Source of the DNA: Sulfurospirillum sp.
GTDB lineage: Bacteria > Campylobacterota > Campylobacteria > Campylobacterales > Sulfurospirillaceae
Assembly (NCBI GenBank): GCA_016735235.1
Contig: JAERRW010000027.1
Coordinates: 1 to 40,885, forward strand
Direction: 5' to 3'
Length of the DNA: 40,885 nucleotides
In this document: positions 27,945 through 32,736 of the stretch, one piece after another
Layout: every line of letters begins with the position of its first letter
Position numbering within the stretch: position 1 is the stretch's first letter
Notes under the pieces: generated by a model
The model's database searches: none
What the model was told of the DNA's origin: nothing
Seen by the model: only the letters and a program-made list of their open reading frames with translations
Position numbers and translations under genes: made by a program

Positions 27945-28571
27945 GTGGATTTTTTATTAAATATCAATATTCAATTTTATATCGTTGCTTACTTGGTTGG
28001 TGGTATTCCTTTTGGACTTCTTTTAACTAAAAAATTAACATCAATTGATGTTAGAGAGAGTGGGAGCGGTAGTATTGGTGCTACTAATGTTCTAAGAGTC
28101 TTGAAAGAATCAAACCCAATAATGGCAAAAAGGATAGCCGTTGCTACACTGCTTTTAGATGCTCTAAAAGGTATTTTTGTCTTAATTATTGCTAGCATAT
28201 TAGGCTTGAGTGAACAAACACTATGGATGATTGCTATACTCTCTATTGTGGGACACTGTTATAGCCCATTTTTGAAGTTTGAAGGCGGAAAGGGTGTTGC
28301 TACAGGTATGGGTGTTATGCTTTTCATGTTACCTATTGAAACTATTTTAGCTATTATTGCTTGGTTTATAGCTGGAAAAATATTTAAAGTCTCATCGTTA
28401 TCATCTTTGATAGCACTTACTACTTTGATTGTGTCATCTTTTATTATTCATCCTCAAATTGATGAAATTAAAACACATGCACCTATATTTGTTATTGCTT
28501 TTTTAATCACCTACAAACATGTACCAAATATAATGAGGCTTTTTAGAGGTGAAGAGTCTAAAATTGTATGA
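27945..28571 (+). CDS. plsY: PlsY, glycerol-3-phosphate acyltransferase
   Basis: This 208-residue membrane acyltransferase makes lysophosphatidic acid from acyl-phosphate and glycerol 3-phosphate. Its motifs are GSGSIGATNVLRV, GHCYSPFLKFEGGKGVATGMG, and KHVPNIMRL near the end. About five transmembrane helices are visible. Translation starts at GTG, seven bases after AAGGA. It overlaps folB (ATGA) and begins the plsY-folB-cosR run, an order I recall in Campylobacter. Confidence 0.96.
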   Translation: MDFLLNINIQFYIVAYLVGGIPFGLLLTKKLTSIDVRESGSGSIGATNVLRVLKESNPIMAKRIAVATLLLDALKGIFVLIIASILGLSEQTLWMIAILSIVGHCYSPFLKFEGGKGVATGMGVMLFMLPIETILAIIAWFIAGKIFKVSSLSSLIALTTLIVSSFIIHPQIDEIKTHAPIFVIAFLITYKHVPNIMRLFRGEESKIV

Positions 28572-28894
28572 CAATATTTATTGAAAATCTAACATTTCAC
28601 GCAATTATAGGTACTTTACCAAAAGAACGAATAACTCCTCAAAAGATTGTTGTTAATCTTGAGTTAGACTATGAGTACAAAAAACCTATTTTTATTAACT
28701 ATGCTACTTTGGCTCAAATAATAAAAAATAATATAAAAATCAATAAATACATGTTAATAGAAGATGCTCTTTTATCTCTACATGAAGAGATAAAGAGTAA
28801 ATTTATACAAATTACTTCAATGAAACTTAAAATTTCCAAGCCTACTATTCTCGCTCAATGCGATGTTTCCGTAAGTTTATATAAAAATTATTAA
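28568..28894 (+). CDS. folB: Dihydroneopterin aldolase
   Basis: This 108-residue protein catalyses the aldolase (and epimerase) step of folate synthesis. Features are IENLTFHAIIGTLPKER at the N-terminus, YATLAQII near residue 50, the conserved ALLSLHEEI helix, and SKPTILAQCDVSVSLY near the end. It is short but complete for FolB. Its start overlaps plsY by four bases, and 80 bp follow before the next gene. Confidence 0.85.
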   Translation: MTIFIENLTFHAIIGTLPKERITPQKIVVNLELDYEYKKPIFINYATLAQIIKNNIKINKYMLIEDALLSLHEEIKSKFIQITSMKLKISKPTILAQCDVSVSLYKNY

Positions 28895-28957
28895 GTTAAT
28901 ATAAAAAAAACTTTAAAATTAACTAAAATTATGCTAGAATACTATTTTAAGTTAATA
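28891..28957. promoter_or_regulatory. Two 11-bp direct repeats flanking the cosR/hsrA promoter
   Basis: TTAAGTTAATA occurs at 28891-28901 and 28947-28957. An extended -10 (TGCTAGAAT, 28932-28940) lies between them, with the ATG at 28975. The repeats overlap and follow the folB stop. They are candidate autoregulatory sites for the regulator encoded downstream. Confidence 0.4.
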
Positions 28958-28974
28958 AATATTAAAGGAACATA

Positions 28975-29646
28975 ATGAGAATTCTAATAGTAGAAGATGA
29001 AATTACTCTAAATAAAACTATTGCTGAAGGATTACAAGAGTTTGGCTACCAAACTGACAGTTCAGAAAACTATAAAGATGCTGAATATTATGTAGGCATA
29101 AGAAACTATGATCTTATCTTAACAGATTGGATGCTTCCAGATGGTGATGGAGTTGATTTAGTAACACTTGTTAAACAAAAAGCACCAAGAACTGCTTGTG
29201 TTGTAATCTCTGCAAAAGATGACAAAGATAGTGAAATTAAGGCTTTTAAAGCAGGTGCTGACGACTACATTAAAAAACCCTTTGATTTTGATATTCTAGT
29301 TGCCCGAATTGAAGCTAGACTTAGATTTGGAGGAACTAATGTAATCAAAATTGATGATTTAGTCATTGATCCCGATGAAGAGAAAATTACCTACAAAGGT
29401 CAAGATATTGAGCTAAAAGGCAAACCATTTGAAGTGCTTACACACTTAGCTCGCCATAGTGATCAAATTGTCTCCAAAGAGCAACTACTAGATGCTATTT
29501 GGGAAGAACCAGAATTAGTTACTCCAAATGTTATAGAAGTTGCAATTAATCAAATTCGCCAAAAAATGGACAAGCCTTTAGAGATCTCTACAATTGAAAC
29601 TGTGAGACGCAGGGGCTATAGGTTTTGTTTTCCAAAAAAAGTATAA
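28975..29646 (+). CDS. cosR: HsrA/CosR-type OmpR-family response regulator with intact receiver
   Basis: This 223-residue protein has a receiver domain (1-115) and a winged-helix DNA-binding domain (about 125-221). The C-terminal half carries blocks I recall as near-identical in HP1043/HsrA and Cj0355c/CosR: GKPFEVLTHLARH, QIVSKEQLLDAIWEE, VTPNVIEVAINQIRQKMDK and ETVRRRGYRFC. In H. pylori the receiver is degenerate and the protein is an orphan. Here the acidic pocket (Glu7, Asp8), phospho-acceptor Asp51, Ser79 and Lys101 are all present. A histidine kinase gene overlaps the 3' end. It probably acts as a conventional two-component regulator, perhaps of redox or growth genes. Confidence 0.9.
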   Translation: MRILIVEDEITLNKTIAEGLQEFGYQTDSSENYKDAEYYVGIRNYDLILTDWMLPDGDGVDLVTLVKQKAPRTACVVISAKDDKDSEIKAFKAGADDYIKKPFDFDILVARIEARLRFGGTNVIKIDDLVIDPDEEKITYKGQDIELKGKPFEVLTHLARHSDQIVSKEQLLDAIWEEPELVTPNVIEVAINQIRQKMDKPLEISTIETVRRRGYRFCFPKKV

Positions 29647-30950
29647 GAGATAAATTTACATTACAATTAGTGTTAGCTTCGACTACATTAATTGTAATCT
29701 TCTCCACTATTATCTACAATTACATAAAAATCTCTATTTATGAAGATCTAAATATTGAATTAGTAGAAGAGGCCACATCAATTACCACTGGACACAACCA
29801 CCTTTTAGGTCTTACAGAAATTGCACTTTATAAATATATAGTTAATAATATGAATAGTAATTTAAAAATAGTAACAAAAACAGATAAAGAAAATAAAATT
29901 ACATTCCAACAGTATAAAAAAAATAGTATGAGTTTTTTAACTATCTATTACCCATTGAATAAAAAAGCATCTAAGTTTTTGTCAATTACTAAAGATATCT
30001 CTAGTACAGATAGACTTCTTAAGAAAATTTTGCATAGTATAATAGTAATCAACTCTATAACTATCTTCTTAGTTGTAATTTATAGTTTTTTTCTCTCAAA
30101 AATGCTTATTATTCCAATACAATCTTTAACAACAAAACTAATAACCATGAATGAAAATTTTTTTCAATCTATTAATACAAAAAATATACCTAATGAATTT
30201 ATTCCACTTGCTTTTAGTATCAATAAGTTAATAAATAGAATCCATACTTTTACAAAATATCAAAAAGAGCTTTTTATAGGCATAGCTCATGAGCTTAAAA
30301 CTCCGCTGTCTGTTATGAAAACTAAAAATGAAGTTACGCTACTCAAAACAAGAGAGCAAAAAAAATATATAGATGCCTTAAAACAAAACAATAAAAGTAT
30401 AGATGAAATGAACAAAATGATAGGGTCTATTTTAGAGATAGGCAGGCTCGAAGGTGCGCAATTTGAGCAACCAATTGAAATAGACTTAATTCAATTTTTA
30501 AAAAATCAAACAAATAATTTTGAAATTCTTGCACATCAAAAAAATAGAAAAATCATAAGTAATTTCTCTCCGGGGTCATTTCCAATTATGATGCAACCTA
30601 CACTTTTAATAAATATAGTGCAAAATTTTGTGCAAAATGCAATAAAATTTACTTCTGAAAATGGAGTTATAGAGATAAAAAGTTTTACTGATTCTAGCGG
30701 TATAAATATACAAATTCTAGATAATGGCATAGGAGTAGATGAAAAGCAGGATCTTTTTGCTCCATTTAAAAGATATGGCACAAAAGAGGGAGCTGGTCTT
30801 GGGCTATTTTTAGCAAAAGGAGCAGCAGATGCAATAGGAGCAACAATCAAAATAGAAAATAGAAAAGATGGAGATGGAGCATTGGCATCTCTTCATATAC
30901 CTGTTTTGAACAAAAAATTAGGAAAAATTATAAAAAAATGTGATATATAA
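29625..30950 (+). CDS. Membrane sensor histidine kinase, partner of the HsrA/CosR-type regulator
   Basis: This 441-residue kinase has two transmembrane helices (about 13-33 and 140-160) around a periplasmic domain of about 105 residues, then a HAMP-like linker, HisKA with His in GIAHELKTPLS, and HATPase with N-box NIVQNFVQNAIKF, D-box DNGIGVD and GLGLFLAKGAA. It overlaps the regulator gene by 22 bp, starting at TTG; the exact start is unsure because no ATG lies before the first helix. The adjacency suggests it phosphorylates the upstream regulator. The periplasmic domain has no recognisable ligand-binding fold. Confidence 0.88.
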   Translation: MFSKKSIRDKFTLQLVLASTTLIVIFSTIIYNYIKISIYEDLNIELVEEATSITTGHNHLLGLTEIALYKYIVNNMNSNLKIVTKTDKENKITFQQYKKNSMSFLTIYYPLNKKASKFLSITKDISSTDRLLKKILHSIIVINSITIFLVVIYSFFLSKMLIIPIQSLTTKLITMNENFFQSINTKNIPNEFIPLAFSINKLINRIHTFTKYQKELFIGIAHELKTPLSVMKTKNEVTLLKTREQKKYIDALKQNNKSIDEMNKMIGSILEIGRLEGAQFEQPIEIDLIQFLKNQTNNFEILAHQKNRKIISNFSPGSFPIMMQPTLLINIVQNFVQNAIKFTSENGVIEIKSFTDSSGINIQILDNGIGVDEKQDLFAPFKRYGTKEGAGLGLFLAKGAADAIGATIKIENRKDGDGALASLHIPVLNKKLGKIIKKCDI

Positions 30951-31005: not shown

Positions 31006-31257
31006 ATGTCACTACTTATAACTAACGAATGCATAGCATGTGATGCTTGCAGAGATGAATGTCCAAATTGTGCTATTGAAGAAGCGGATCCTATCTATAT
31101 AATTGATCCTGATGTTTGTACAGAGTGTGTTGGTTACTATGATGAACCCTCATGCATAATGATTTGTCCTGTCGAGTGCATCATATCTGACCCAGACAAT
31201 ATAGAGATAATGGCAGAACTCAAGCTTAAGTTTGAGCAGATGTCTAGTGAGCAATAA
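31006..31257 (+). CDS. fdxB: Bis-[4Fe-4S] ferredoxin, FdxB/YfhL type
   Basis: This 83-residue protein has two cluster motifs: CIACDACRDECP near the N-terminus and CTECVGYYDEPSCIMICP, where the second CxxC is stretched by an insertion, as in the YfhL/Alvin ferredoxins. It carries electrons in the cytoplasm; partner unknown. The fdxB position next to cosR is also seen in C. jejuni (Cj0354c-Cj0355c, recalled). No ribosome site is clear; a 12-bp AAAGTTAAAAAA-like sequence occurs twice just upstream of the ATG. Confidence 0.92.
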   Translation: MSLLITNECIACDACRDECPNCAIEEADPIYIIDPDVCTECVGYYDEPSCIMICPVECIISDPDNIEIMAELKLKFEQMSSEQ

Positions 31258-31266
31258 TACAATTTA

Positions 31267-32736
31267 ATGGCAAAAAGAACAGCTATTATAGATATTGGTT
31301 CGAACTCTGCAAGAATGGTTATTTTTGAGAAAAGTAGTCGTTTTGCTTTCCATCTTATAAAAGAGACAAAAAGTCGTGTACGAATTGGAGAGGGTGCATA
31401 TGAAAATGGTGGAGTTCTTCAAGAAAAACCGATTCAAAGAACTCGTGATGCACTAGAAGATTTTTGTCGCATTATTAAAAACTTAAAATGTCGTAAAACT
31501 TTTTGTGTTGCTACTTCGGCATTGCGTGATGCTCCAAATGCACAAGCATTTATAAAGAAAATTAAAAAAGAGTTAAAATTAAACATAAAAATAATTGATG
31601 GTAAAAAAGAAGCAGAGTTTGGCGCATTAGCATCACTTAATCTTCTCAAACCAATTCAAAATGCAACAACTATTGATATAGGTGGCGGTTCTACTGAATT
31701 AGCTTGTATAGAAAATGGCAAAATAGTAGATACAATATCTATAAATATAGGAACAATTAGATTAAAAGAGCTTTTTTTTGACAAATCTAATGAGCTTGAT
31801 AAAGCAAAAGAGTTTATAAGCACTAAACTATCAAAACTACCAAAACACTTTAAATCAAAAACAATAATAGGTATTGGTGGAACAATAAGGGCTTTTTCTA
31901 ATATAGTTATGGATAAAATAAACTATCCTTTGAAAACAATTCATGGGTTTGAGTATAGCATTGAAGAGTATAACTACATGTTAAATCAAATCACCTCATC
32001 GAATATGTCTGCATTAAAAGAGTTAGGAGTAAAAAAAGATAGGTATGATACCATGAGAGAGGGTTGTACTATTTTTAATGCATTAATTAATCTAATAGGT
32101 GCAAAAAAAGTAATTACTAATGGTGCTGGTGTAAGAGAAGGTGTATATCTTAATGATTTACTCTGCTCTTCTAATAAGAGATTTCCAAAAAATTTCCAAG
32201 TTAGTGAAAAAAGTTTAAGTGATAGATTTATAGTAGACAAAAAAGAGAGTCTTTATATTAGTAAAATAGCCCTCAAACTTTTTAATGCTTTAGATTCTGT
32301 TCATAAAATTGACCCAATATTTAAAAAAGAGTTACAAATTGCAGCCAAACTTTATAATATAGGAAGAAGTCTTAGTTTTTATCAAGAACATCTTCATGGT
32401 TTTTATTTTATAACAAATAATTTAAATTATAATTTTTCACACCAGCAAAGAGTTCTTATAGCACTTTTAGTAAAATATCATACAAAAGAGTTGCCTAGTT
32501 TTGAGGATGTTAAAGCTTTTAAAATGCTACTTCCAAAGATTGATATAGTAAATTGGCTTAGTTTTATTATCTCGCTTGCAAAATGCTTAAATGCAAATTT
32601 TTCAAATGCTAAACTAGATTTTTTATATAAAAATCATACATTGACGATAAAATGCTCACAAAAATTATTTTTAGCACAAGAGTGTATTAAAAAACTAAAT
32701 AAACCAACCTCTTTTTCAATTGTTATAAAAAAATAA
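31267..32736 (+). CDS. ppx: Exopolyphosphatase / guanosine pentaphosphatase (Ppx/GppA)
   Basis: This 489-residue ASKHA-fold phosphatase has the phosphate-1 motif AIIDIGSNSARMV at the N-terminus, the phosphate-2 block IDIGGGSTELA, and GIGGTIRA, with a C-terminal HD-like helical region (GRSLSFYQEHLHGFYF). It degrades inorganic polyphosphate or converts pppGpp to ppGpp in the stringent response. It follows fdxB by nine bases and has no clear ribosome site, so it may be translationally coupled. It ends 19 bp from the convergent bamA stop with no hairpin. Confidence 0.93.
   Translation: MAKRTAIIDIGSNSARMVIFEKSSRFAFHLIKETKSRVRIGEGAYENGGVLQEKPIQRTRDALEDFCRIIKNLKCRKTFCVATSALRDAPNAQAFIKKIKKELKLNIKIIDGKKEAEFGALASLNLLKPIQNATTIDIGGGSTELACIENGKIVDTISINIGTIRLKELFFDKSNELDKAKEFISTKLSKLPKHFKSKTIIGIGGTIRAFSNIVMDKINYPLKTIHGFEYSIEEYNYMLNQITSSNMSALKELGVKKDRYDTMREGCTIFNALINLIGAKKVITNGAGVREGVYLNDLLCSSNKRFPKNFQVSEKSLSDRFIVDKKESLYISKIALKLFNALDSVHKIDPIFKKELQIAAKLYNIGRSLSFYQEHLHGFYFITNNLNYNFSHQQRVLIALLVKYHTKELPSFEDVKAFKMLLPKIDIVNWLSFIISLAKCLNANFSNAKLDFLYKNHTLTIKCSQKLFLAQECIKKLNKPTSFSIVIKK

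Follow-up and report, generated by a model that had tools for sequence, protein, structure and literature searches.

An intact CosS–CosR two-component pair in Sulfurospirillum and the recurrent absence of its kinase across Campylobacteria

The cosR–cosS locus

The window, that is, the whole 40,885-nucleotide stretch of Sulfurospirillum sp. DNA that was analysed (from a 1.5-Mb assembly in 106 contigs), contains a response regulator gene and a histidine kinase gene in tandem on the forward strand. The first, cosR (28975..29646, ATG start), encodes a 223-residue OmpR-family response regulator in which domain searches recovered Response_reg (9.5e-25) and Trans_reg_C (1.1e-20), with the receiver at residues 1–117 and a winged-helix DNA-binding domain at residues 142–217. 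Alignment confirmed the proposal, made from the sequence alone, that Glu7, Asp8, Asp51, Ser79 and Lys101 are all intact; the receiver thus has the acidic pair, the phosphorylatable aspartate, the Ser/Thr at position 79 and the lysine of a CosRS receiver, and Tyr98 is present as well. The best PDB relatives are the full-length, 223-residue DNA-binding response regulator chains of 8uvx and 8uuz (1.7e-125), which we take to be the published Campylobacter jejuni CosR structures; the next is 2hqr (5.7e-83), the HP1043-type protein. The regulator is similar to C. jejuni CosR and to HP1043 over its full length and has a near-identical DNA-binding domain, which identifies it as a CosR/HsrA orthologue; its closest named relatives come from Sulfurospirillum.

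The second gene, cosS (29625..30950, forward strand, TTG start), encodes a 441-residue membrane sensor histidine kinase and overlaps the end of cosR by exactly the predicted 22 bp (29625..29646). The overlap recurs, at a conserved position, in most Sulfurospirillaceae and Campylobacteraceae, and Sulfurimonas CosS homologues have ATG where the window has TTG (MFSKRSIR versus LFSKKSIR), both of which argue that the TTG start is correct. HisKA and HATPase_c domains were found by domain search, and the catalytic boxes of this CosS orthologue are complete: H222 in HELKTP, N338, D366 (DNGIG) and G389 (GAGLGL). All surveyed CosS sequences complete over the region keep the phosphoacceptor histidine and the N and G boxes. 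In six (loci L284, L289, L294, L296, L250 and L033) the D-box aspartate is replaced by asparagine, the other boxes being intact.

Hydrophobic segments at residues 11–34 and about 131–168 of CosS leave around 100 periplasmic residues between them, close to the 105 first estimated. The sensor region (residues 31–138; 29715..30038, forward strand) was modelled from an alignment of 80 sequences as a helix, four strands and a helix, with fair confidence (pLDDT 81). A structure search with this model returned no match at E<=0.001; the best-looking matches, none with a significant E-value, were the extracellular domain of WalK (TM-score 0.62–0.66), CitA and Mlp24. Because these structural matches are weak, we regard a PAS/Cache-like fold as no more than plausible for the sensor.

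The pair is flanked, also on the forward strand, by plsY (27945..28571) and folB (28568..28894) upstream and by genes for a YfhL-family 4Fe-4S ferredoxin (31006..31257) and a Ppx/GppA phosphatase (31267..32736) downstream. This is the plsY–folB–cosR–(cosS)–fdx–ppx order that surrounds CosR/HsrA orthologues, and it agrees with the CosR context given in the sequence-only reading. The conserved overlap and synteny rule out a chance juxtaposition of cosR and cosS. TTAA-type sites are common in AT-rich genomes such as these. Upstream of cosR (28900..28974, forward strand), a pair of TTAA half-sites spaced 11 bp apart lies ahead of a TATAAT-like −10 element; the paired half-sites are conserved in alignments of Sulfurospirillaceae, and their spacing is that of the HP1043 consensus site (PMC8345958), which suggests that cosR may be autoregulated through this candidate CosR box.

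Distribution of CosS and Asp51 across Campylobacteria

Among 397 Campylobacteria genomes searched, every one had a CosR match and 249 had a CosS match (E<=1e-20), two of which (G231 and G354) were weak and not adjacent to cosR. The cosR neighbourhood was read in 229 genomes covering nearly all genera; because divergent CosR were deliberately over-sampled, proportions within this set are not class frequencies. The kinase gene lies directly downstream of cosR in 124 of the 229, so the pairing is by no means peculiar to the genome studied here. Glu7, Asp8 and Asp51 are kept in all 124. Asp51 is absent from 79 of the 105 genomes without an adjacent kinase; a further 16 retain both Asp51 and the acidic pair, of which 14 belong to the genera f2g32, f2g33 and f3g54 and two (G133 and G348) have CosS elsewhere in the genome. 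The remaining ten, nine from family f5 and one Helicobacter-type genome, keep Asp51 and are basic at position 8, a substitution described in many aspartate-less receivers, including RitR and HP1043 (PMC4395418).

No kinase-positive, Asp51-negative CosR occurred among the 229 genomes read. Mapping Asp51 loss against kinase loss, as had been proposed, therefore places missing Asp51 solely where the adjacent kinase is absent. CosR and CosS distances are also correlated (r=0.63, Mantel 0/2000); an independent-pairs sign test for coupling between kinase and Asp51 was not significant, with just three well-supported pairs. The window pair has neither the degenerate receiver nor the missing cognate kinase of the phosphorylation-independent orphans, and the initial description of CosR/HsrA as an orphan regulator holds for some Campylobacter and Helicobacter lineages but not in general.

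Two single-genome cases were recorded at finer scale. At locus L133 (G034; approximately 1370–1492), an unrelated gene replaces cosS and position 51 is serine, in a genus where CosS is otherwise retained; it counts as a separate, small-scale kinase loss. At locus L127 of a Helicobacter-type genome (G087), a frameshift close to the second membrane helix divides the CosS frame, with cosR intact, which points to gene decay or to an error in the sequence.

On the CosR tree, at least five to six changes of kinase state and four of Asp51 state are needed, and a single loss, with all kinase-less CosR in one clade, was rejected by the AU test (p-AU 3.5e-6). The kinase-less state thus arose on five or more occasions. 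Where Campylobacter, Sulfurovum and Nautilia lack the kinase, the synteny is otherwise the same, with a gap of 1–370 bp between cosR and the ferredoxin gene, versus about 1350 bp where cosS is present. Since the state with kinase but without Asp51 never occurs and its converse does, kinase loss most likely precedes Asp51 loss.

Receiver decay in kinase-less lineages

The extent of receiver change differs among the kinase-less groups. Kinase-bearing CosR sequences share 68 receiver positions with conservation of 90% or more. Of these, the C. jejuni group has lost 12, Sulfurovum 16, Nautilia 29 and other Helicobacter 11, against only two in f2g32/f2g33 and one in f3g54, the kinase-less groups that retain Asp51. 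Nautilia CosR keeps Asp51 too, with Asp8 changed to Lys or Arg and the LPDGDG motif gone. The DNA-binding domain has 81 positions conserved to the same degree; 14 of these are lost in Nautilia and none or one elsewhere. C. jejuni and H. pylori cannot do without CosR/HsrA, which is a drug target, and this essentiality would keep the DNA-binding domain under strong constraint throughout.

Receiver position 19, which lies in the first helix, is glycine in all kinase-bearing CosR and is changed in every decayed clade. In other systems the first receiver helix docks the kinase. Changes of this type may explain why restoring the aspartate alone was insufficient in a published experiment, in which C. 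jejuni CosR N51D was not phosphorylated by C. fetus CosS (PMC3938529). The changes that the C. jejuni group has accumulated at otherwise fixed receiver positions (for instance G19, M53 and D82) thus offer a testable reason for that failure.

Second CosR-like proteins were also observed. In family f6, each of the four genomes sampled encodes one (L261:777-1514 in G394, L264 in G117, L271 in G007 and L274 in G348), with a DNA-binding domain 74–84% identical to that of the window CosR and a strongly degenerate receiver, so that a single genome carries an intact CosR alongside a pseudo-receiver one. At three of these loci the gene is transcribed divergently from a nuoA homologue. Further second CosR-like proteins, more distant and with no kinase beside them, occur in families f10 and f13 (L273:801-1466 in G047, L275 in G248 and L276 in G209).

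Origin of the pair and relation to known systems

We consider it very probable that the window genes form a complete CosS–CosR system and that the orphan regulators, at least those of the Campylobacterales, descend from this intact form through repeated loss of the kinase followed by decay of the receiver. CosS, anchored by two membrane helices, would sense a periplasmic or envelope signal through its small, putatively PAS/Cache-like domain, phosphorylate itself on His222 and hand the phosphoryl group on to CosR Asp51, a transfer predicted for this genome and measured in C. fetus. The CosR DNA-binding domain, nearly as in the orphan forms, would then act at CosR-type sites, the cosR promoter probably among them. 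After several independent losses of the kinase, the receiver would have decayed at the acidic pair, at Asp51 and at conserved positions such as G19, M53 and A80.

The opposite polarity would have CosR start out without a kinase, like that of Nautilia, with cosS inserted ahead of the ferredoxin gene at an early stage of the Campylobacterales and lost again in some lineages. It draws on the Nautilia-type genomes, where cosR and the ferredoxin gene lie 1–2 bp apart in otherwise unchanged synteny, and on the literature, which calls Nautilia deeply branching. The Nautilia receiver nonetheless looks derived, as expected after kinase loss, and the canonical residues of kinase-bearing CosR are the general OmpR-family state, as OmpR-family regulators generally have them; we therefore judge such an acquisition unlikely. 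The proposal that the two-component form is ancestral, with the kinase lost later, accordingly stands as far as the intact form and its later losses are concerned, given the frequent adjacency and the correlated distances, but does not extend to the time before the Nautilia branch: a phylum-wide draw for an outgroup returned members of the same order only, none of them an outgroup carrying CosR, and the deep Nautilia branch lacks the kinase. It is very improbable that CosR takes its phosphoryl group chiefly from another kinase or from acetyl phosphate rather than through Asp51 from its neighbour. The small aerotolerance phenotype of a C. fetus cosS mutant would fit such a donor, yet adjacency and overlap of the two genes are conserved across families, the kinase strictly co-occurs with an intact Asp51, and CosS-to-CosR transfer has been measured in C. 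fetus.

The sequence-only reading had also placed kinase loss in host-associated lineages, which proved too narrow. An association with host-associated lifestyle, for instance through genome streamlining, would account for the C. jejuni group, most Helicobacter and some Campylobacteraceae metagenome-assembled genomes (f3g54), all without the kinase, but CosS is likewise missing from the vent chemolithotrophs Sulfurovum sp. NBC37-1 (G263), which has 29 histidine kinases in all, Sulfurovum lithotrophicum (G220) and Nautilia profundicola (G039), where plsY–folB–cosR–fdx–ppx is unchanged and the gap is 1–184 bp. Conversely, many animal-associated species keep CosS, among them non-thermotolerant Campylobacter and the H. 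pullorum type. Host association is thus rejected as a rule, and we hold it quite unlikely that kinase loss tracks this lifestyle.

With repeated loss from an intact pair as the preferred reading, CosR becomes a replicated natural experiment in the passage from phosphorylated regulator to pseudo-receiver, an account that we think reasonably likely: in at least five lineages, vent chemolithotrophs included, the kinase would have gone first, the site would have lingered, with f2g32, f2g33 and f3g54 caught in between, and the receiver would then have decayed at positions that probably dock the kinase or belong to the active site, the DNA-binding domain remaining fixed. From the intact form one can see how CosR was probably controlled ancestrally, and from the in-between lineages which receiver changes accompany kinase-independent function.

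The window pair is a member, in intact form, of the published CosRS system, and its kinase had already been listed for this family. Hwang et al. (2014) named the kinase CosS, demonstrated autophosphorylation of C. fetus CosS and transfer to CosR in vitro, reported that thermotolerant Campylobacter have lost cosS and Asp51, and listed cosS in Wolinella, Arcobacter, Sulfurospirillum deleyianum and H. pullorum (PMC3938529); a 2024 structural paper restates this background. Because both the pair and its phosphotransfer were already in print, the locus is less surprising than it first appeared; the survey adds scale, multiple independent losses that include free-living lineages, and a likely order of events. 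In the same study, binding of C. fetus CosR to targets of C. jejuni CosR was just weak, and mutation of cosS in C. fetus had mild consequences, with a small effect on aerotolerance (PMC3938529), so the regulon may differ.

CosRS of C. fetus and other non-thermotolerant Campylobacter resembles the window pair in gene order, intact Asp51, downstream kinase and orthologous sensor and catalytic parts, and differs in genus; signal and regulon may differ as well. H. pylori HP1043/HsrA (2hqr), a phosphorylation-independent orthologue, has a four-residue deletion at the phosphorylation site, a replaced Asp8 and no kinase; the window DNA-binding domain is identical at 88 of 105 positions to that of the g18 locus L213. 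C. jejuni CosR (8uvx and 8uuz; PMC10936212) is likewise an orthologue, but in its group Asp51 is replaced by Asn or Ser, cosS is absent and receiver positions including G19, M53 and A80 are changed. Across that difference the DNA-binding half matches as anticipated, with 100 of 105 residues identical between the window and the g14 locus L154.
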